Assembly: GCA_903931355.1 (NCBI GenBank)
Contig: CAIZCB010000012.1
Coordinates: 1-22,622 of the forward strand
DNA: 22,622 bases
Direction: 5' to 3'
From: an uncultured Pseudomonadota bacterium
GTDB taxonomy: Bacteria > Pseudomonadota > Gammaproteobacteria > Methylococcales > Methylomonadaceae
Part shown: positions 9,074 through 20,215 of the stretch, piece by piece
Layout of the letters: every line of letters starts with the position of its first letter
Position numbering within the stretch: the stretch's first letter is position 1
Position numbers and translations under genes: made by a program
The notes under the pieces: generated by a model
Databases searched by the model: none
The model's input: the letters and a program-made list of their open reading frames with translations, nothing else
What the model was told of the DNA's origin: nothing

Positions 9074-9331
9074 ATGCAGCTAACTTTAGACATACCCGAT
9101 CAATACTTGCAAAACCACACGGCAATACAAACGGCGCAACAGATTAAGCTATACGCAGCCCTACTTATGTTCCAATCAGGCCAGTTATCTCGTGGCGCAG
9201 CTTGTGAGTTTGCCGGTGTAGACATTTATGATTTTTTCACCGCTTGCAAGCAACATCAAATCAGCGTGATTAACGTTTCAGAAGACTCAATTGAAGCCGA
9301 TGTTTTGCGCTTTCAGCAACGGTACACTTAA
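9074..9331 (+). CDS. UPF0175-family antitoxin
   Basis: The 85-residue protein begins MQLTLDIPDQYL and has a small DNA-binding-like region, LYAALLMFQSGQLSRGAACEFAGVDIYDFF (about 27-56). The block LY..G.LSRG.A.E.AGV....F is the UPF0175 signature. UPF0175 proteins are commonly encoded just before a DUF3368 PIN-domain toxin, as here, and are taken as the antitoxin and probable autorepressor. AGAGG lies about 9 nt upstream of the ATG. The stop codon overlaps the toxin ATG by one base (TAATG), giving translational coupling. Confidence 0.82.
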   Translation: MQLTLDIPDQYLQNHTAIQTAQQIKLYAALLMFQSGQLSRGAACEFAGVDIYDFFTACKQHQISVINVSEDSIEADVLRFQQRYT

Positions 9332-9804
9332 TGATAGTGATTGCCGATAGTTCCGCATTAGTGGCTTTATCAATCTGTGATTGCCTATCGGTTTTAGATG
9401 AATTGTTCGGCGAAGTTAAAGTCCCTCAGGCTGTTTATGATGAAGTTTGTATTTTCGGCAAAGCCGAATCTAAATCATTAAGCATCTATCTACACGATAA
9501 AGTTTGCGATATATCAACCGCCATTCATATTGAAAAAACCAATGGTTTGGGAAAAGGTGAATTGGCCGCAATCAATCTGTACAAACAATTAGCCGCCGAT
9601 TTATTATTGATTGATGACGCACGCGCCAAGAAGATTGCTTACATCAACAATGTAGAGGTGATGGGTCGTCTAGGCGTGCTATTACTAGCCAAACAAAAAG
9701 GACTAATAAGTGCAATTAGACCTTTTATTGATAGATTGCGAAGTTCAGATATTTTTATCAGCGACCATTTGCTAGAGCGATTATTAGTCATAGCTGGTGA
9801 GTGA
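9331..9804 (+). CDS. DUF3368 PIN-domain toxin (VapC-like ribonuclease)
   Basis: The 157-residue protein is a PIN-domain nuclease of the DUF3368 type. The acidic set is present: Asp6 in VIADSSAL, Glu38 in VYDEV, Glu77 in GKGELAAI and Asp95/Asp96 in LLIDDARAKK. GRLGVLLLAKQKGLI (112-126) is the typical DUF3368 helix. As with VapC toxins the likely activity is Mg-dependent RNA cleavage, silenced by the upstream UPF0175 protein; this is inferred from the families. It starts on the last base of the antitoxin stop. The sequence looks intact. It sits between the two quinoprotein-relay genes, which suggests the module was inserted there or the relay genes were rearranged. Confidence 0.84.
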   Translation: MIVIADSSALVALSICDCLSVLDELFGEVKVPQAVYDEVCIFGKAESKSLSIYLHDKVCDISTAIHIEKTNGLGKGELAAINLYKQLAADLLLIDDARAKKIAYINNVEVMGRLGVLLLAKQKGLISAIRPFIDRLRSSDIFISDHLLERLLVIAGE

Positions 9805-9905: not shown

Positions 9906-10736
9906 ATGAAAAAACCCCAGCTACTCGCAACGATTTTGCTACTCAGCTTTTGTGGCCTTGCCCAAGCGGAAGGTGATGACATCACTTGGAACACTAGCTT
10001 AAAAAGCCAGTTTTTTGCCGGTAAAACCATTGAAGAATCAGACAGCGTAATCGAGTTAGAAGCGCCCTACCGCGCTGAAGATCCTGCTATCGTGCCAATC
10101 AAAGTCAGCAGCAAATTCGCGCAAAGCAAAGACAAATACATCAAAAAAATCTGGTTACTGGTCGATAAAAATCCATTCCCCTTCGTCGGCGAGTTTGAAT
10201 TCTTTCCCGAAAGCGGCAAGGCTGATTTAGCGATGCGTATCCGCGTCAACACCTACAGCAACATCCGCGCCATAGCCGAAACCAATGACGGCAAATTCAC
10301 CATGACCAAAAAATTCGTTAAAGCCAGCGGCGGTTGTTCTGCACCGATAGGCGCGGATTTGGATGAAGCGATGAGTCGAATTGGTAAGGTGAAATTTCGT
10401 TTAGATGACGGGGTTAAAAACGGCGAAGCGTCGTTAGCGCAGTTGATGATTAGCCATCCCAATTTGACCGGAATGCAGATGGATCAAATCACCCGCTTTG
10501 TCAGAAAATCGCATTTTATCGACCAGTTAAAAGTCAGCTTTAACAACAAACCGGTGTTAAACGCCAAAATCGACATTGCGATCAGTGCCGACCCCAACTT
10601 CCGTTTTTACTTCGTGCCCGATAAAGCCGGTGAATTAAAAGCCGAGTTCACCGATATTTCTTGTGAATCGCCGATTAGCCGCGATGCTTGTAAAAAAGGC
10701 AGTAGCTACACCCAAAGCTATACCGTCACCCCTTAA
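9906..10736 (+). CDS. Quinoprotein dehydrogenase-associated SoxYZ-like carrier protein
   Basis: The 276 residues have a signal peptide (1-21, cleavage LAQA-EGDD), an N-terminal SoxY-like beta domain (about 35-145) and a C-terminal SoxZ-like domain (about 165-275). The SoxY swinging-arm cysteine is retained as Cys144 in SGGCSAP, here between the domains instead of at a free C terminus. MISHPNLTGMQMD matches the SoxZ M.HPM.TG motif. Fused proteins of this kind accompany PQQ-dependent dehydrogenases in methylotrophs and are thought to carry a substrate or redox group on the cysteine in the periplasm. AGGAG precedes the ATG. Two further cysteines (253, 262) lie near the end. Transcribed alone; the hydrolase partner is at 6835-7749. 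Confidence 0.83.
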   Translation: MKKPQLLATILLLSFCGLAQAEGDDITWNTSLKSQFFAGKTIEESDSVIELEAPYRAEDPAIVPIKVSSKFAQSKDKYIKKIWLLVDKNPFPFVGEFEFFPESGKADLAMRIRVNTYSNIRAIAETNDGKFTMTKKFVKASGGCSAPIGADLDEAMSRIGKVKFRLDDGVKNGEASLAQLMISHPNLTGMQMDQITRFVRKSHFIDQLKVSFNNKPVLNAKIDIAISADPNFRFYFVPDKAGELKAEFTDISCESPISRDACKKGSSYTQSYTVTP

Positions 10737-11532: not shown

Positions 11533-11685
11533 TCAAAAAAACTGCTTAGCAAAATTAGCAATCGCCAACACAGTCAAAACACCTAGCATCCAACGAGTAT
11601 GCGAATTATCTGCCCGCAATAGCTCAATCTTGGCGTCAAAATGTTGGCGGGTAAGATTAGGATTCTTAAGTGTAGCCGTGGTCAT
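11533..11685 (-). CDS. 50-residue single-span membrane protein, possible remnant of a DUF1640/CCDC90-like coiled-coil protein
   Basis: A short minus-strand frame runs from ATG (11685-11683) to TGA (11535-11533). The product starts MTTATLKNPNLTRQHFDAK, continues IELLRADNSHTRWMLG and ends VLTVLAIANFAKQFF. It has an amphipathic helix (15-30) followed by one membrane span (32-45). AAGGTGAT stands 8 nt before the ATG. FDAKIELL.A......W.LGVL. resembles the C-terminal end of DUF1640 coiled-coil membrane proteins, often seen near toxin-like or mobile regions in methylotrophs, but with most of the coiled coil missing. It begins 39 nt after the helicase stop and ends 37 nt before the barrel gene, all on the minus strand. 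It may be a genuine small protein or a decayed copy. Confidence 0.55.
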   Translation of the reverse strand: MTTATLKNPNLTRQHFDAKIELLRADNSHTRWMLGVLTVLAIANFAKQFF

Positions 11686-11724
11686 AACATCATCACCTTA
11701 TTTTTATTTCAAAATCAATCACGA

Positions 11725-14700
11725 TTAGCTGCTCTTAATAATTTCTTTGACGAGGAAGTTTCTGGCTGTGGTGCCAGGTAGATGGAGAATCACCTCGTCG
11801 CCAATGACAGCGCCAAGTAGAGATTGTGCAAGCGGTCGGCTTTCATTGACGATACCGTTTGAGAAATCGTCCTTCCCTCTGGTTATCTGGACCGTCAGTA
11901 TATCGTTCGGCTTGGCAAGATCGATGTAGCGAATCACATCGTCTACATCGATCTCCAGGTCGTCCTCTGTGTTGATCAATACCGAGCTAATGGCCTTACG
12001 CTCCATCTCGGCTTGAGCAGTGTTTTCAACCTGTTCAATTTCCTGATTCACACGCGCTCCCTGACCTTCCTCGATCCATGCATCACCAGAAGTGTGCTCA
12101 GGCTTCCAGTTCTCACGCAAATCCTCAAGGAAGCTGATGAGTTTCTCAGTCTCTTGTCTTGGTGTACGGAACCAGTCAGTAGACCAGATGCGCCAAATAC
12201 GACCACGCCAACCAAGTGATTCAAGAATCTCTTGGCGAATGCGATCACGGTCACGAACAGAAAGGGCTGAGTGGTAGGAGGCTCCATCGCATTCGATAGC
12301 AGCCAAATACGAACCAGGGGCATCTGGATGCTTGACGGCAATATCGATGCGGTAGCCCGCCACACCCAGCTGAGGTGTGACTTCGTAGCCTCGCAGCTTG
12401 AGCATGTCCATAACAGAGATTTCAAAATCACTGTCTGGCTCGCGGCCTGTTTCTTCGTAGGTAGTCAGTGATCCTGTTCGAGCGTACTCAAGGTAATTGC
12501 GCAGTGCCTTGGTCCCATCTGGGGTGGTCCCATCCATCACAATGTCTTCGGGGCGCAATGATGTGTAGAGAGCAATCGACTTTTTTGCTCGAGTGAACAA
12601 GACGTTCAAACGACGCCAGCCACCTTGGCGGCTGATGGGGCCAAAGTTTTGACGAACGGCACTTGAGCCGGCAGGTTTGCCAAAGGTCGTCGAGATGATG
12701 ATGGCGTCGCGTTCATCACCTTGGACGTTCTCAAGGTTCTTAATGAAAAGAGGCTGACCCTCGACTGCCCAGTGATCACGATAGGAGTCAGTTCCACGAA
12801 CTGACTTGAGACGTTCTTCCAGGAGCTCGGCAATCAGGTCACGCTGCTTGATGTTGAGCGTCACAATACCAAGGGACTCATTAGAGCGGGTTGCAATGTG
12901 CTCGACAACCGCTTCCACCACTCGCTTGGCTTCGCGCAGATTGGTCTGGTTTTCGTAGATAGCATCGGCTAAGTAAACTGCCCGCACCCCCAACTTACCA
13001 CCTTGTCCATATGGCGAAGGGAAGATAATCAGGTTCCCGCGGTAGAAACTGTGGTTCGAGAAGGCAATCAGGGAATGATGCTGCGAGCGGTAATGCCAGC
13101 CCAACGATCGGGTAGGCCTGAAATGCGACGAACAGACGTCCAGAATGCTCTCAGCGTCAGTGGTGGTGAAGTGATCATCTCCACCATCTCCATCCTGCGT
13201 CATTCGTGAAAAGAACGATGTGGGAGGCAGCTGCTTTGGATCACCGACCACAACCAGCTGACCGCCACGAGCAACCGAACCAATCGCCTCCTCGGGCTTC
13301 AATTGAGACGCCTCGTCCATGATGACGAGGTCAAACTTGATGACGCCTGGAGCCAAATACTGTGCCACTGCTTGTGGCCCCATCATGAAGCAAGGTTTCA
13401 ACGCTTGGATTGACCCACCTGCTCGGGTGAGAATTTTCCGAACGGGCATGCGCGGACGTTGCTGAGGCATCAGGTAGTTCAGGAGAACCATCTCAGTGCG
13501 GTCGTCGACACGGGCACCATTCCTGCCGGTTGGTAGCGAAGCCTTGCGGGAGCATTCATAGGCTATTGCCTTTCCACGCAGTGAAATGATTTCCCTGTCC
13601 AGTCGTTTAAACTCGTCGCGGATCTGATTGTGCTTGAGTCCTGTGAACCGACCTAGCTCAGGGATGTTTCGGAATGCTTCGCGTGTGATCGTGCTGTAGG
13701 TGCAGTAAGCGTAAGCATCGTTCAACTCATCGGGCTTGATACGTTTTTTCTCGAGAAGCTCCACGAACTCAGTCAAGGTCAGCTCACCGGCTTCCTTGCG
13801 GAGCGTCAAATACAGAGCCCAGGGAATCAGAAGATCCTGATCTTGGGTAGCTTTTTGAACGACCCCATGCAGAGCACTGACAAATAGCTCTAGGTCTTCG
13901 TCAGCAGGCGATCCTGTCCATGTGTCTATTTCAAACTTCCCGAATTGGGACAGAGCAATGCTCAAGTTCTCGACGTGCTGCAGGCCGGTATGCACATCTT
14001 CTAGCGCGGTAACCAACGTGCAACAAGTCTCAATCGGATGTCCAGAGCGCAGCTTGTATTTAACCTGCGGCGACAAGTTGAGACCATCGATGCTTTGACC
14101 AAAAGAGAGAGCTTCAATGGCTGTTGAGCAGTCGGTGTCCACCCCCGAATAGAGTTCGCCAAGAAGCGCCTTGACGCGGGCATTGCCTTGAATTTGGGAC
14201 TTCAAAGTCGATCGTTCCAAAGCTGCATCACATCCTGTTATCACCTGACTAAAGGTAGCCTGGCTTCGCGCCTCCAACTCCAGCCATTCGAAACGGTTCT
14301 CGAGAGCTTCGATAAATTCCGCAGTCTTTTCGATCACCTTCTCGAGCAGATGAATGCCGCTGAACTCAGAGAGTCTTTTGAGCTTCTCGTTGATGCTGTT
14401 GAAGGCTGCAATCGCGGCTATGATCTCCAACTTGACTGCAGAGAACTCGCGTCGCAGCGCGCGTGCTTGGTCGGCTGTAAAGCTGATTGGGTCAATAAGT
14501 ACAGCTTGGATGTCCTCGGATGCTAACTTAATGTCACGATTCCAACTAGCCAACGCAAGGTAGCCCTCTAAGGGCGATGGCGATGACGTTGCTGGCGCTA
14601 GGAAGCCGAGGAATTGTGTCCAGGTTGGAGAGGATTTCCACTGCTCCTTAAGACCCAGAAATTTGATGATTTTCTCGAGCTGTTCTAGGCGCTTGTGGCC

Positions 14701-17133
14701 AGGCATCTTTAGCTTGGTGCGCTGAAGCGCCTTGTGTAATCCCACCGCCTTGCGCCATCGCCCTTGAAAGATCCGATACCAAGCATCACCCTCACGCAGG
14801 GTCAGGATAGCTTGCTTGATGTCTCCCTCATGCGGCAAGGTGTCTAGGTAGAGAGAGTCACCCAGTTCTTTCTCAAGTCCGGTCCATTCGGCTTGAAGAA
14901 CAAGCAACTGATCAATGGCTTGGACTGCGCCATCGCGAGTCAGACCCGGAGTCTGAAGATGGAAGTGCTCCTCAGGGGCATCCAATACGAGGTCGGTGAA
15001 ACTGAGCAACTGCTCCAGTTTCTGCTTCGATCCGTCATATGGAATATTTTTCACACAGAGAAAACTGATGACAGCGGCATTAGCTGTTGAAAGCTTGCCC
15101 ACAGTCTCAACAAGCTGTTGATGAAGGGTTCGCAGTTCGTTGAACGTGCCCAAATCAGCCCCTAAGCTATCTGCTTGTCGTTTAAGACTTTTCAGATCAT
15201 CCGCACCAGATTTCGTGACGCTGAATTCCAGCTTGAGGGCTGCTTTGACAGCACCTTCTAGGCTGTGGAACTGCTCCACCTGGTTGGAGAAAGATTCAAG
15301 CGCTTGAGCGGCTTTTATGCCTGTCTCATCGTCTTCGAAGAATCCAGGGATGAGATGCAGGGGGAGTTGTTGATTGGCGGTCTCAAGCAGACGCTTGAGA
15401 ACAGCCAATTGCTCCCTGCTAAAAGCCAATGAAAGATTATGAGCTCGCCCCCCGAGAACCTGCGAATAGTGTTTCGAGGCGACCACTAAAGCCTTCCCCC
15501 AGGTGTCTGCGGCTTCGAATAACTGAGTTAGTTTAACTTCGTCACCAGGGATCAGCCGCTCAGGGTAGAACCCCCAGAAGGTACAACTTGCATCGAAACC
15601 ACCTACGGATTTGTACTGAGAGCCCAGATACCCAAGGCAGTCCATACGCCGACCGAACTCAAATTCGGAAATTTGAGTCGCGTCACCGACGGTAATCTGA
15701 CTAAGCATGCTTTCTTCGTTGCTGAGACCTTGACGGTGCTTCTCAGCACGCCACATGATTTGATGCAGCGTCAATCCGAACGCATTATGAGCGATGGAGT
15801 TGATAAGATCTGTATAGGATTTTAGGTCTTTACGATGCGCTTCCAGCTGCTGTTGCAGACGAGGAAGATCATTTGGGTGATTTGGTGTGAAGGTGGTTCG
15901 CTTAGCGATTTCCTCCAATACCCGCTTTTTGTTGGTCTTGTTACTGTGCAGTTCGAGCACAAATGGATCAAGCCCAGCGAGTGAGAGGCGGTTTTTCACA
16001 ACCTCAAGAGCTGCCAACTTCTCAGCGACAAACAGAACCTTCTTGCCTTCTGCAAGGCAAGCCGCGATCAAGTTGGTGATGGTTTGAGACTTGCCTGTTC
16101 CCGGAGGGCCTTCGATAACTAGGTTCTTCTTGAGCGACAAGACATCAATTAGGGCGCTGTGCTGGGAACTGTCGGCGTCGTAAACGAGCGGAATGCTCGC
16201 TCCGGGTCCTTCTTCAACCAAATGTTCTTCGGCAAGACTGAGACCCACTCCACCTTCATCAGCCCTACCCTCGAATACTTCACGGACGATCGGGTGATCG
16301 ATGAGAGAGTTTTCATCACCGTTTGACGGCCATTTAGTCGGATCCAAGTCTCGAACTAACAACATCTTGCTGAAACTAAGCAAACATAGGGAAACCCGAT
16401 GCTTGATTGCGAATCCAGGTTGTTTCTTGATGATTGCCTGAATTTCGGCGAAGTAGCCGTTGACATTGATTTGTTCTTCGGCGAGTTCTGGCAAAACCAT
16501 TCCGAAGTCGTTCCGCAGCTTCTCTCTTAGCGAGAGATTCTCTGAAATGTCGTCGCCCGTGTACTGGAGTGAGAATTGCTGGATGCCTGCAACTTCCTTC
16601 TTTTGCAAAGATACAGGGACGCTGATCAAAGGGGCTGTGAATGACTTGTCGCTGTCTCGCTGGTCAGGGAACTCCAAGAACCCTAGCACCAAGAACAGCA
16701 TGTTCGCACCGGTTTCCTCAATTGCCAGCGTGGCCTCGCGCTCGATCTTGCGGCAATGTTTGGCCAGATCGTCTGGATACATCAACGCACGGACATTTGA
16801 CTCGCCTGAGTCTTCCCCTGCACCTGATATGTCGTAGCCCGTAGGGATTCCCACAGACTTGGCCCACTCTCGAGGTTCGGGTCGCTGTAGACGCCCGTTG
16901 TGTTCAACCCAGTCGCTCTGGGCCGGATCAGGGAGCCCGAGAACGCTGATGTAGGCCTTGTTGTTCGCCTCAACCAGCTTTTGATAAATAGCGTCAGGAT
17001 GCCCTTCTACAAACTGCAGCGACTTGCCAGCGGTATGTTTGAAATTGAGAAGCCGATTGCGCCCTGTCAGGTCGAGCAGTTTCAGTCGTAACTGCTCGAG
17101 AGCGGAAGTAAGTATTGATGCGCTATAGCTCAT
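11725..17133 (-). CDS. DUF4011-SF1 helicase-Vsr-like nuclease with GreA/B-like C-terminal domain (predicted anti-phage protein)
   Basis: The intact 1802-residue protein has four parts. DUF4011-type N terminus: LRLKLLDLTGRNRLLNF (15-31). SF1 helicase split by a long helical insert (about 400-1230): Walker A GPPGTGKS (342-349), VIMDEASQL with Asp1273/Glu1274, VVGDPKQLPP (about 1295-1304), WHYRSQ, NVQGDERDAIIIST (about 1472) and NVLFTRAKKS (about 1512). PD-(D/E)xK nuclease like Vsr/MTES_1575 (about 1568-1665): Glu1571, RIDIA with Asp1597, and IECDG with Glu1614. Last 74 residues (1729-1802) like the GreA/GreB C-terminal fold: SRPLAQSLLGAVIGDEV. Single-gene DUF4011-helicase-Vsr proteins are catalogued as defence (Hhe), so nucleic-acid degradation during phage infection is inferred. 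The gene is visibly more G+C rich with more C/G-ending codons than its neighbours, suggesting transfer. AAAGGA precedes the ATG. Confidence 0.88.
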   Translation of the reverse strand: MSYSASILTSALEQLRLKLLDLTGRNRLLNFKHTAGKSLQFVEGHPDAIYQKLVEANNKAYISVLGLPDPAQSDWVEHNGRLQRPEPREWAKSVGIPTGYDISGAGEDSGESNVRALMYPDDLAKHCRKIEREATLAIEETGANMLFLVLGFLEFPDQRDSDKSFTAPLISVPVSLQKKEVAGIQQFSLQYTGDDISENLSLREKLRNDFGMVLPELAEEQINVNGYFAEIQAIIKKQPGFAIKHRVSLCLLSFSKMLLVRDLDPTKWPSNGDENSLIDHPIVREVFEGRADEGGVGLSLAEEHLVEEGPGASIPLVYDADSSQHSALIDVLSLKKNLVIEGPPGTGKSQTITNLIAACLAEGKKVLFVAEKLAALEVVKNRLSLAGLDPFVLELHSNKTNKKRVLEEIAKRTTFTPNHPNDLPRLQQQLEAHRKDLKSYTDLINSIAHNAFGLTLHQIMWRAEKHRQGLSNEESMLSQITVGDATQISEFEFGRRMDCLGYLGSQYKSVGGFDASCTFWGFYPERLIPGDEVKLTQLFEAADTWGKALVVASKHYSQVLGGRAHNLSLAFSREQLAVLKRLLETANQQLPLHLIPGFFEDDETGIKAAQALESFSNQVEQFHSLEGAVKAALKLEFSVTKSGADDLKSLKRQADSLGADLGTFNELRTLHQQLVETVGKLSTANAAVISFLCVKNIPYDGSKQKLEQLLSFTDLVLDAPEEHFHLQTPGLTRDGAVQAIDQLLVLQAEWTGLEKELGDSLYLDTLPHEGDIKQAILTLREGDAWYRIFQGRWRKAVGLHKALQRTKLKMPGHKRLEQLEKIIKFLGLKEQWKSSPTWTQFLGFLAPATSSPSPLEGYLALASWNRDIKLASEDIQAVLIDPISFTADQARALRREFSAVKLEIIAAIAAFNSINEKLKRLSEFSGIHLLEKVIEKTAEFIEALENRFEWLELEARSQATFSQVITGCDAALERSTLKSQIQGNARVKALLGELYSGVDTDCSTAIEALSFGQSIDGLNLSPQVKYKLRSGHPIETCCTLVTALEDVHTGLQHVENLSIALSQFGKFEIDTWTGSPADEDLELFVSALHGVVQKATQDQDLLIPWALYLTLRKEAGELTLTEFVELLEKKRIKPDELNDAYAYCTYSTITREAFRNIPELGRFTGLKHNQIRDEFKRLDREIISLRGKAIAYECSRKASLPTGRNGARVDDRTEMVLLNYLMPQQRPRMPVRKILTRAGGSIQALKPCFMMGPQAVAQYLAPGVIKFDLVIMDEASQLKPEEAIGSVARGGQLVVVGDPKQLPPTSFFSRMTQDGDGGDDHFTTTDAESILDVCSSHFRPTRSLGWHYRSQHHSLIAFSNHSFYRGNLIIFPSPYGQGGKLGVRAVYLADAIYENQTNLREAKRVVEAVVEHIATRSNESLGIVTLNIKQRDLIAELLEERLKSVRGTDSYRDHWAVEGQPLFIKNLENVQGDERDAIIISTTFGKPAGSSAVRQNFGPISRQGGWRRLNVLFTRAKKSIALYTSLRPEDIVMDGTTPDGTKALRNYLEYARTGSLTTYEETGREPDSDFEISVMDMLKLRGYEVTPQLGVAGYRIDIAVKHPDAPGSYLAAIECDGASYHSALSVRDRDRIRQEILESLGWRGRIWRIWSTDWFRTPRQETEKLISFLEDLRENWKPEHTSGDAWIEEGQGARVNQEIEQVENTAQAEMERKAISSVLINTEDDLEIDVDDVIRYIDLAKPNDILTVQITRGKDDFSNGIVNESRPLAQSLLGAVIGDEVILHLPGTTARNFLVKEIIKSS

Positions 17134-17480
17134 GGCTATCCTTTTTTTCTTTTATAGCCTGGAGTGCAAAAATATCCATTTAAGTCTTTCTGATTTTTTA
17201 ATTGATAAAAGATTTATTACTTAAGTCCCAAGCCAAAAAGACTTGCCATCTTAGTTCTATTCCGCCATTAATCAGCAACAAAATTTTGCCGAAGTAATTT
17301 GCTAGCGTCCTATTTTCCAGAGAATAACTCAAGTAGTTTTTCTGAAATGTGTTTATACAATCATCATTACGAATGCCAGCGGGAAATACTCCAAAACTAG
17401 ACCCCAATCACACGCTCACATGTAAAGTCGCCGCGATTTCAGATAAAATCCTTGAATTAGTTAAAGTTATGGAGTGTTGG
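17134..17480. other. A+T-rich intergenic region between the helicase gene and def2
   Basis: These 347 bases separate divergent genes. They contain the helicase ribosome site, enclosed by a short GGCTAT/ATAGCC repeat (17134-17139, 17154-17159), a minus-strand TATAAA (17156-17151) that might be a -10, and the def2 ribosome site GGAG (17471-17474). An open minus-strand frame of 69 codons (17198-17407) has no recognisable product and no good ribosome site. I saw no tRNA, no integrase remnant and no clear direct repeat matching the other flank of the helicase gene near 11686-11724. Confidence 0.6.
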
Positions 17481-17987
17481 GTGAGTATTCTAACCATTCT
17501 TGAGTTTCCCGATAAACGTCTTAGAACCGTTGCCAAAAAAGTCGATAAAGTCGATGCCGGCATTCAGCAATTGGTCGATGACATGCTGGAAACCATGTAT
17601 TCGGCAAAAGGTGTGGGCTTGGCGGCAACGCAGGTCAATGTACATAAGCAAGTGATTGTGATGGACATTAGCGAGGAGAAAAACCAGCCGCTGTGTTTAA
17701 TCAATCCTGAGATTATTTCAAAAGATGGCGAAGAACAAGGCGAAGAAGGCTGTTTATCGGTGCCAGGATTTTTTGAGCCGGTGACGCGTGCGGCTAATAT
17801 TAAAGTCAGTGCTTTGAATCGTGACGGCCACCATTTTCAATTGGAAGCCAGTGATTTGTTAGCGGTGTGTATTCAACATGAAATGGACCATTTACAAGGC
17901 CATTTGTTTGTCGATTACTTATCAGCTTTTAAACGCAATCGGATTAAATCCAAGCTGGAAAAAATCCATAAATCACAAGGCCGCTAA
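17481..17987 (+). CDS. def: Peptide deformylase (fmt-operon copy)
   Basis: This is the housekeeping deformylase acting on formyl-Met of nascent proteins. From GTG 17481 it is 168 residues: GVGLAATQ (44-51), EGCLSVPG (89-96) with Cys91, and QHEMDH (132-137) with His133, Glu134 and His137. The start [20 protein letters not shown] matches the E. coli start as I remember it. The frame continues upstream to 17349, but those codons have no homology, and GGAG at 17471-17474 is placed correctly for GTG 17481. It precedes fmt by 9 bases in the classic def-fmt-rsmB order. A second deformylase is at 6295-6822. Confidence 0.95.
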
Positions 17988-17996
17988 GGACATATC

Positions 17997-18923
17997 ATGA
18001 AAATCGTTTTTGCCGGCACACCTGATTTTGCGGTGCCGACCTTACAGGCTTTGCTAGATTCAGAACATCAAATCTGCGGTGTTTACACCCAACCCGACCG
18101 CCCTGCTGGCCGAGGTCGCAAGCTAACGGCTAGTCCGGTTAAGGCTTTGGCGGTCTCCGCGAATCTGCCAGTTTTTCAGCCGGAAAACTTTAAACAAGCC
18201 GATGCTTTAGAACAATTAGCTGCGCTGGAGCCGGATTTGATTGTGGTGATTGCTTATGGCTTGATTTTGCCGCAAGCGGTTTTGGATATTCCCAAATTTG
18301 GCAGTATTAATGTTCATGGCTCTTTACTACCGCGTTGGCGCGGTGCAGCACCGATTCATCGGGCGGTGATGGCCGGTGATGAGAAAACCGGCATTACCAT
18401 TATGAAGGTGGTGAAAAAACTCGATGCGGGCGACATGCTGTATAAAATCGAATGCCCGATTAACGCAGATTCCACTTCTAGCGAACTCCACGACCAATTA
18501 GCCGAGATCGGCGCACAAGGTTTAATCCAAGTCGTTAATCAAATCGAACAAGGCACGCTAATTACCGAGCCGCAAGACGAAGCTTTAGTCACTTACGCTC
18601 ACAAATTAGAAAAAAACGAAGCCATGCTGGATTGGCAAAAATCGGCGCAGGAATTAGATCGTCAAGTTCGCGGTTTAAATGCTTGGCCGGTGGCGCAAAC
18701 TTTATATAAAGGTGAAGTGTTACGAGTTTGGCACAGTGAAGTGATTGACGGCGAAAGCGATTTGCCAGCTGGCACGATTAGTTGCCAACAACATGCGCTG
18801 GATGTCGCAACCGGTAATGGCATTTTGCGGTTACTGGAAGTGCAATTACCCGGTGGCAAACGGATTGCTGGTAAAGATTTTCTCAATGCGCATCAAGCCG
18901 ACAATCTAAGGTTAGGTCTATGA
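17997..18923 (+). CDS. fmt: Methionyl-tRNA formyltransferase
   Basis: Fmt transfers a formyl group from 10-formyl-THF to initiator Met-tRNA. The 308 residues start KIVFAGTPDFAVP.LQALL and contain TQPDRPAGRGRKL (31-43), the catalytic Asn105 and His107 in INVHGSLLPRWRGAAPI (104-120), and Asp143 in KKLDAGDM. The C-terminal OB-type domain follows from about residue 205 (NAWPVAQT onward). Length is slightly below the 315 residues of E. coli. AAGGA precedes the ATG. The TGA overlaps the rsmB ATG by four bases (ATGA). Confidence 0.97.
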   Translation: MKIVFAGTPDFAVPTLQALLDSEHQICGVYTQPDRPAGRGRKLTASPVKALAVSANLPVFQPENFKQADALEQLAALEPDLIVVIAYGLILPQAVLDIPKFGSINVHGSLLPRWRGAAPIHRAVMAGDEKTGITIMKVVKKLDAGDMLYKIECPINADSTSSELHDQLAEIGAQGLIQVVNQIEQGTLITEPQDEALVTYAHKLEKNEAMLDWQKSAQELDRQVRGLNAWPVAQTLYKGEVLRVWHSEVIDGESDLPAGTISCQQHALDVATGNGILRLLEVQLPGGKRIAGKDFLNAHQADNLRLGL

Positions 18924-20215
18924 ATTTACGTCGCTGCGCGGCACAGGTTTTGTCGCGAGTGTTGAGCGATGGCCAATCATTAACCGCCGCTTTGGATTCG
19001 GCTCTGCCAAAAATCCCCGATCCTAAAGACCGCGCTTTTGTTCAAGCTTTATGCTACGGAGTGATTCGTCATTATTTTGATTTGGAGTTTTTGTTAAGTC
19101 AGTTGCTGACTAAACCGCTCAAACAAAAAGACAACGACATCAAAGCTTTGTTATTAGTCGGTTTGTATCAGCTACAACAAATGCGGGTGAAATCCCATGC
19201 CGCCGTTTCGGAAACGGTGGCTGCTGCTAAACATAAAGTTTGGGCAAAATCTCTAGTGAATGGCATTCTTAGACAATATTTGCGTGATGCCGAAACTTTA
19301 GAAGCCACTTGCGCCGCCCATCATCAAACGCATCACAACCATCCTGAATGGATGATGAAGCTGATTCAACAAGCTTGGCCGGAACAGGCTGAAGCGATTT
19401 TTAGCGCTAATGACCAAGCGTCGCCAATGAGCTTGCGGGTTAATCTGCATAGAACCAGCCGCTCAGATTATATGGCGTCTTTAAAAGCCGAAGGCATTGA
19501 TGCTGAGCGTTTTGACGCTTGCGATAGCGCGATCACTTTGCCGCAAGCGGTCAGCGTGGAAAGTTTGCCGGATTTTCATGATGGTTTAGTGTCGGTGCAA
19601 GATTTAGCCGCTCAACTGGCCGCGCAATTGTTGGATGCTCAAGCCAATCAATCAGTATTGGATATGTGCGCGGCACCAGGAGGCAAAACCGCAGCGATTT
19701 TAGAGCGCCAGCCTGATTTAAAAAGCTTGTTGGCGATTGATGTCGATAGCCAGCGTTTGGAACGGGTCACCCAAAATCTACAGCGGCTACAGTTGTCCGC
19801 AGAAACTTTGGCTGCCGATGCCTCTCAGCCACAAAACTGGGCTAAAGGTCGGCAATTTGAACGGATTTTGCTGGATGCGCCCTGCTCTGGCTTGGGGGTA
19901 ATTCGTCGTCATCCTGACATCAAATTACTGCGCCGCGAAAGCGACATTGCCGCCTTGCAAAGCTTGCAAGCACAGATTTTAGAGGCGGCTTGGTCATTGC
20001 TAACTGTTGATGGGATTTTGCTGTACGCCACTTGTTCAATCTTGAAACAAGAAAACGAACAGCAACTTGAGGCGTTTTTAGCTCGTCATACCGATGCGGT
20101 TGAAATCAAAATCGAGGCGGATTGGGGTATCGCTAGACCGTATGGCCGCCAAATTATCACTGGCCAACAGCAAATGGATGGCTTTTATTATGCCAAGCTT
20201 CGCAAAACCGCTTAG
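18920..20215 (+). CDS. rsmB: 16S rRNA (cytosine-967-C5)-methyltransferase RsmB (Sun/Fmu)
   Basis: RsmB methylates C967 of 16S rRNA with S-adenosylmethionine. The 431-residue protein has an N-terminal NusB-like RNA-binding domain (1 to about 130, with RAFVQALCYGVIRHYFDLEF) and a C-terminal methyltransferase domain: DMCAAPGGKTAAIL (248-261) for SAM, DVDSQRLERV.QN (274-286), LDAPCSGLGVIRRHPDIK (318-335) with Cys322, and LLYATCSILKQENE (367-380) with Cys372. These two cysteines are the pair used by the NSUN/RsmB enzymes. It overlaps fmt by 4 nt and the next gene by 26 nt. Confidence 0.96.
   Translation: MNLRRCAAQVLSRVLSDGQSLTAALDSALPKIPDPKDRAFVQALCYGVIRHYFDLEFLLSQLLTKPLKQKDNDIKALLLVGLYQLQQMRVKSHAAVSETVAAAKHKVWAKSLVNGILRQYLRDAETLEATCAAHHQTHHNHPEWMMKLIQQAWPEQAEAIFSANDQASPMSLRVNLHRTSRSDYMASLKAEGIDAERFDACDSAITLPQAVSVESLPDFHDGLVSVQDLAAQLAAQLLDAQANQSVLDMCAAPGGKTAAILERQPDLKSLLAIDVDSQRLERVTQNLQRLQLSAETLAADASQPQNWAKGRQFERILLDAPCSGLGVIRRHPDIKLLRRESDIAALQSLQAQILEAAWSLLTVDGILLYATCSILKQENEQQLEAFLARHTDAVEIKIEADWGIARPYGRQIITGQQQMDGFYYAKLRKTA

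Follow-up and report, generated by a model that had tools for sequence, protein, structure and literature searches.

A predicted Hhe-like helicase-nuclease with a GreA/GreB-type tail in an exchangeable C-terminal slot

A giant gene encoding an Hhe-like protein with a Gre-type tail

We analyzed a 22,622-nucleotide stretch of DNA from an uncultured bacterium of the Methylomonadaceae (contig CAIZCB010000012.1 of assembly GCA_903931355.1; hereafter, the window), focusing on a single giant gene. This gene is one open reading frame (ORF) on the minus strand that runs from an ATG at 17133 to a stop at 11725 (11725..17133) and encodes 1802 residues; a plus-strand reading of the same interval was ruled out by its many stops. 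From the N terminus, the product comprises DUF4011, a split superfamily 1 (SF1) helicase, an MTES_1575 restriction endonuclease (REase), a linker, and a GreA/GreB C-terminal tail, all encoded on the minus strand. More specifically, DUF4011 occupies residues 18-206 (16516..17082; Pfam PF13195, 121.6 bits, cut-off 22.2), and the sequence GPPGTGKS, which we take to be the Walker A motif, is present at residues 342-349 (16087..16110). The motif DEAS, presumably Walker B-like, was read in the protein sequence at residues 1273-1276 (13306..13317), and AAA_12, the second RecA-like half of the SF1 helicase, lies at residues 1395-1521 (12571..12951; PF13087, 48.9 bits, cut-off 27). Because ~920 residues separate Walker A from DEAS, a long insert must interrupt the first RecA-like half; Pfam AAA_11 matched in two separate stretches of the protein. 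Sequence comparison with solved structures yielded five distinct matches at E <= 0.001, namely, SMUBP-2 (two), Sen1 (two), and a 5'-3' RNA helicase-like protein. The REase, which is Vsr-like and of the PD-(D/E)xK type, spans residues 1570-1669 (12127..12426; PF18741, 118.2 bits, cut-off 38.2) and retains E1571, D1597, and E1614. With DUF4011, SF1, and MTES_1575 domains all above their Pfam cut-offs in a single protein, the product is of the Hhe-like kind, and it is predicted to have helicase and nuclease activity. The original prediction, made from the letters of the window, had described DUF4011, an SF1 helicase, a Vsr-like nuclease, and a Gre-like C terminus; the Pfam domains and the fold of the tail bear out this architecture, and the three REase residues had been placed correctly.

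Behind the REase, a linker at residues 1690-1722 (11968..12066) contains two stretches (model residues 31-46 and 52-63) with a predicted local distance difference test score (pLDDT) below 50. It is followed at residues 1729-1802 (11728..11949) by a tail that is modeled with the GreA/GreB C-terminal, FKBP-like fold, an assignment based on fold, profile, relatives, and homologues. Fold comparison and profile search of the tail returned solely Gre-type proteins at the top, so that the claim that the last 74 residues are GreA/GreB-like, which the lack of such a fold was to have overturned, stands. As to the suggested search with PF01272, relatives pass the gathering score of 26.9 bits, whereas the window protein itself remained below it (17.6 bits, or 23.3 in the genome search), which limits the Gre assignment. 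Alignment by hhalign of the tail to 9 GreA proteins of relatives (those of 20 Gre loci that were caught by pattern) gave a probability of 56% and an E value of 1.1e-4, a result that rests on very shallow alignments and is weaker than the other tests. Some relatives bear the JGI product name "transcription elongation GreA/GreB family factor."

Like the C-terminal domain (PF01272) of GreA, GreB, Gfh1, and Rnk, the tail has the Gre-type fold and carries the motifs PLAxxLLG and GDEV; in contrast to these proteins, it has no visible coiled-coil N-terminal domain and is fused behind a nuclease. The stretch ahead of it is variable and of low model confidence, with helices solely at model residues 2-16 and 49-60, and a profile alignment to PDB sequences extends weakly into the Gfh1 coiled coil. 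The N-terminal coiled coil with an acidic tip, which precedes the globular domain in transcript-cleaving Gre factors, was not found in the window protein. Since no Gre coiled coil was seen, a role in transcript cleavage is not expected. For the window gene and 11 close relatives, among which synonymous sites are near saturation, the ratio of nonsynonymous to synonymous substitution rates was 0.10 (median) for the tail, 0.018 for the REase, and 0.12 for residues 1680-1728. The tail is therefore under purifying selection, albeit weaker than that on the REase.

We next compared the product with named defense families. The Hhe model NF042953 gave 1365.4 bits against a curated cut-off of 2000, a shortfall that had escaped the original prediction and that ruled out filing the gene as Hhe. 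The match covered model positions 1-1730 of 1797 and residues 11-1720 of 1802, leaving the C terminus of the model unreached, whereas the positive control, the NCBI-named Hhe of locus L146, scored 2194.8 bits over the full model. Hhe (PADLOC Hhe) and the window protein share DUF4011, a split SF1 helicase, and an MTES_1575-type REase in identical order, and they fall into neighboring clades of a tree of their cores; they differ in that L146 ends in another, helical-looking tail that NF042953 covers (to 1797) and that contains neither PF01272 nor a match to the family tail profile. On these grounds (the score, the unreached model end, and the Gre-free tail of L146), the window protein represents an Hhe-like sister family with a C terminus of its own. 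By eye, an Hhe-type tail (LRPxM ...) was recognized in L036, L045, L098, and L146; Pfam matches it in none of these four loci, so the C-terminal part of Hhe is an unnamed domain. Among PADLOC models, the candidate family PDC-S37 scored best for the window protein (1204 bits; Hhe, 903 bits), but this match is not specific, as the Hhe control L146 reaches 1202.5 bits on PDC-S37. The C-terminal 143 residues alone matched no PADLOC model at E <= 0.001, and the model of the anti-phage protein ProA (NF058533) gave 1079.7 bits, where 1500 are required. A defense role of the giant protein is suggested by homology and context.

Domain exchange at the C-terminal slot

The main new result is an exchange of domains at the C-terminal slot. 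In locus L064 (contig CAMCYL010000036, labeled Akkermansia), the same core is followed at the C terminus by a DksA/TraR domain (PF01258, 27.9 bits, cut-off 24.9), and this tail matched solved structures of DksA ("DnaK suppressor" 6ptg, 1.2e-17; chain 1tjl, 5.9e-4). Its nearest relative, protein P0122 (85% identity over 71% of residues 1560-2183), has a Gre-type tail according to the family profile (53.9 bits for the C-terminal piece, 47.3 for the whole protein), on which Pfam's own Gre model did not reach E 0.1; in the tree, distances of 0.02 and 0.07 separate the two cores from the node that joins them. The L064 reading frame continues into the DksA/TraR domain, and shortly ahead of that domain a GTG at 13047 is the sole in-frame start codon, which makes misjoining of the contig improbable, though conceivable. 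The DksA swap is known from one contig of a metagenome-assembled genome (MAG). No second REase-DksA fusion was found in 398 genomes of the phylum, the matches listed there being to the REase part or the DksA part alone, nor in viral contigs, nor in a protein search with the L064 tail; among the plasmid matches listed (10 of 314 records), none covered >80% of the query. An AlphaFold2 model of the L064 tail alone, from a single sequence, was too weak (pLDDT 61.6) and was left unused.

Other proteins have additional or different occupants in this position. In P0229, the Gre domain (30.1 bits) is followed by PcrA_UvrD_tudor (34.8 bits, cut-off 23.9), and in L046 by TopA-like zinc ribbons (28.5 bits, under the cut-off of 32); in L038:1544-2437, a member of the Gre clade, an FGE-sulfatase domain (97.9 bits) stands in place of the tail. 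Separately, cysteine-rich, zinc-ribbon-like stretches without a Pfam match were seen past the Gre tail in P0213 and P0137 (last 163 and 71 residues, respectively). These occupants bear on an explanation in which the tail is a Gre-derived FKBP-like module for folding, dimerization, or binding of a partner other than RNA polymerase, and the slot is a mere place of domain exchange. We consider this unlikely: Gre, Gfh1, and Rnk chains rank over FKBPs in the fold comparison, and of the over-threshold extras or replacements found in the Gre clade (DksA/TraR, PcrA/UvrD Tudor, and FGE), two of the three are kin of polymerase binders.

The Gre-type domain itself was probably gained more than once, since it is found on P0119 and P0120 and, in another clade, on L115. 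P0119 and P0120 represent a distant SF1-REase protein that lacks DUF4011 and carries the same tail, scoring slightly below the PF01272 cut-off (25.5 and 26.4 bits) and, for P0119, 104.7 bits on the family tail profile; in a short tail tree, their tails adjoin those of L003, L002, and L006. L115:1453-1860 (minus) passes PF01272 (27.8 bits, cut-off 26.9), and its core belongs to a separate, distant clade beside the tail-less L100 of the same genome (G056). Its tail is likely a second, independent gain; phmmer with this tail against PDB sequences returned no Gre protein.

We classed the C termini of 241 proteins. Among genome-contig loci, the tail was present in 48 of the 70 that were readable at the C terminus (of 73; L030, L035, and L043 were not), a biased figure, because the loci were drawn with the window protein as query; the 22 tail-less loci include some cut by a stop or frame change, such as L004, whose tail sits in the next ORF piece. 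A class-wide sample had a homologue in 20 of 369 genomes, the window's own genome counted. Of its 21 genes (20 loci and the window), L103 was dropped as cut by the locus end, and a Gre-type tail was present in 3 of the remaining 20, namely, the window, L097 (42.1 bits), and L115. The others end in an Hhe-type helical tail, DUF3320 (L102, 48 bits), WGR, or nothing, and the C termini of L107 and L108 had no Pfam match. The WGR domains were observed in the distant relatives L110:2926-3486 and L112:2914-3408 (53.9 and 61 bits). Consistent with the view that the tail lies outside the basic architecture, it is confined to this minority of the class sample and is lacking from the NCBI-named Hhe. Universality of the tail, one of the outcomes that would have counted against its novelty, is thereby refuted; prior description applies in part, through the JGI names and through a GreA/B-C domain in another conflict system (PMC8195603), where a polymerase role is predicted for it.

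The core tree contains one tail clade of 47 rows (40 Gre, 1 DksA, 1 FGE, and 5 none or cut), with a support of 99 in the Shimodaira-Hasegawa-like approximate likelihood ratio test (SH-aLRT). This clade adjoins that of the NCBI-named Hhe through a poorly resolved fork; across the entire tree, 7 changes of the label Gre are required, 5 of them forced by starred branches. The tree, a quick search with SH-aLRT support only, retained 78 of 97 cores (those of equal label and >92% identity were dropped, and L004 was excluded); P0119, L109, L114, L108, and L104 are among its long branches, and the labels LRPxM and, for L106 and L107, DUF3320-like were set by eye. By record titles, the clade includes Pseudomonadota, Thermodesulfobacteriota, Myxococcota, Nitrospirota, Acidobacteriota, Bacteroidota, Bdellovibrionota, and one Planctomycetota MAG, with Chlorobiota among its tail-less members. 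In a Chlorobium/Methylococcaceae subgroup of the clade, to which L038 with its FGE-sulfatase domain belongs as well, L029, L031, and L033 lack the tail and all stop near the same point. The giant gene of L020:9801-10981 is in two pieces with ~1.2 kb between them.

RNA polymerase as a candidate docking partner

We read the gene, with evenly divided confidence, as an acquired single-protein Hhe-like defense helicase-nuclease whose GreA/GreB-C tail would serve as an RNA polymerase docking module. Gre factors and DksA bind the beta' rim helices through their globular domains (PMC7527559); PcrA/UvrD binds polymerase through its C terminus or Tudor domain (PMC5397179, PMC3797733, PMC8318588, and PMC7585439), and topoisomerase I is said to do so through its C-terminal domains (PMC4678816). 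Polymerase is a testable suspect because the Gre domain is swapped for DksA/TraR, another secondary-channel binder, at the same slot. Docking, which the original prediction had proposed, remains conditional and gains independent support from these swaps, and the L115 tail likewise speaks for it. The original observation is confirmed, and its interpretation is supported in part. Two points weigh against docking. Specific binding of GreA seems to need both the coiled coil and the globular domain (PMC7527559), and the coiled coil is missing in the window protein; furthermore, the FGE occupant of L038 breaks the pattern of polymerase binders.

Two known systems resemble the proposed arrangement. 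In HelD, an SF1-type motor is held on polymerase, at the secondary channel, through a Gre-like domain (PMC7749160); HelD differs in that its Gre-like part lies at the N terminus and includes a coiled coil, and in being a recycling factor, neither a nuclease nor a defense protein. GreA/B-C was also proposed as the polymerase-recruiting part of a PIN-TPR conflict system, mostly a standalone defense protein (Kaur et al. 2021, PMC8195603), which has a PIN RNase and TPR instead of DUF4011, an SF1 helicase, and a Vsr-like nuclease. Neither PIN nor TPR was among the 21 Pfam families matching the window protein at E <= 1, and the terms DUF4011 and Vsr are absent from the main text of PMC8195603. Among the papers listed by our literature search, none applied GreA/B-C polymerase recruitment to DUF4011 helicase-nucleases, none answered what Hhe-like helicase-nucleases sense, and none dealt with a Gre tail in DUF4011 proteins; for PMC10250203, PMC7159879, PMC13092281, PMC12839542, and PMC8565338, this rests on term searches.

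By analogy with Gre factors, the tail would attach to the beta' rim helices where the secondary channel opens, the linker, being flexible, would let helicase and REase reach template DNA near the polymerase, and foreign DNA, such as that of a phage, would be engaged and cut upon transcription or polymerase stalling there. The presence of another polymerase-factor domain at this slot in a close relative suggests that the enzymes act on DNA under transcription. If the tail docks on RNA polymerase, DNA cutting in defense would be tied to transcription and not to sequence, modification, or replication, and the Gre-to-DksA/TraR swap offers a way to approach the question of what is sensed by Hhe-like helicase-nucleases. 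Many phages target the host polymerase. In a different arrangement, the tail would sit on resting polymerase and silence the nuclease until phage proteins that seize or modify the polymerase displace it and trigger cutting. Such a sensor would be compatible with the flexible linker and with exchangeable modules akin to polymerase binders, but the data do not separate a resting guard from active targeting, and we rate the guard as a live, though rather improbable, rival. Returning to docking with active targeting, we tentatively propose, as a possibility that falls somewhat short of an even chance, that such proteins form a widespread, undescribed class of transcription-coupled restriction enzymes. 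These giant helicase-nucleases would ride or police RNA polymerase by means of interchangeable docking modules and cut transcribed foreign DNA; the module would as a rule be GreA/B-C, gained more than once, which DksA/TraR, PcrA/UvrD Tudor, or TopA-like zinc ribbons replace or supplement.

Acquisition and genomic surroundings

The gene lies in a segment (11655..17408, unstranded) delimited by blastn break points at 11654 and 17409. The nearest relative examined (L126, genome G004), with 93% DNA identity over window 17409-19483, lacks the gene and has 201 bp (1216-1416) in place of the segment; the gene is also absent at the same site in L127 and L129. The GC content is 49-53% in the blocks of the gene versus 39-49% around it, and full-length relatives, at 82-89% identity, are mostly records labeled Burkholderiales or other Pseudomonadota. 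These comparisons point firmly to horizontal acquisition of the gene, with the acquired stretch carrying the giant gene alone. Window 11536-11654 shows homology to the 3' portion of a CCDC90-like ORF (88 aa) of L126 (1097-1360), of which only a remnant is left in the window because the acquired segment starts inside that gene. A mobile element around the gene was rejected: neither boundary stretch has repeats of at least 14 bases, and the segment outside its coding part, compared with relatives, had no match except L126 and a few short ones.

The surroundings also bear on a non-defense explanation, in which the protein acts in transcription repair or polymerase recycling, like HelD, UvrD, or Sen1, by removing stalled complexes and cleaving R-loops or damaged DNA. 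The pairing of an SF1 motor and a Gre-like domain, also seen in HelD, agrees with such a role, as do SMUBP-2 and Sen1 among the solved helicase relatives (by sequence) and the housekeeping neighbors def, fmt, and rsmB in the window. We nevertheless rate it as a live but rather improbable rival, given the sporadic occurrence of the gene in the class, its absence at the same site in the three related loci, its kinship to Hhe and PDC-S37, and the neighbors of relatives, which in a scan without control (12 of 15 loci; 107 ORFs out of 133 listed) included JetD of Wadjet in L003 as well as type I restriction models, with up to 6 of the 107 ORFs matching methyltransferase and up to 3 matching specificity models.

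Elsewhere in the window, 2 kb from the giant gene, a UPF0175 gene (9074-9331) is followed by a DUF3368 gene (9331-9804), presumably PIN-type; the two are likely a toxin-antitoxin pair. Tandem methylene-H4MPT dehydrogenase-like genes (186-1088 and 1136-2044; Mpt_N was tested in the first alone) and a quinoprotein-associated SoxYZ-like carrier (9906-10736) suggest that the host is a methylotroph.
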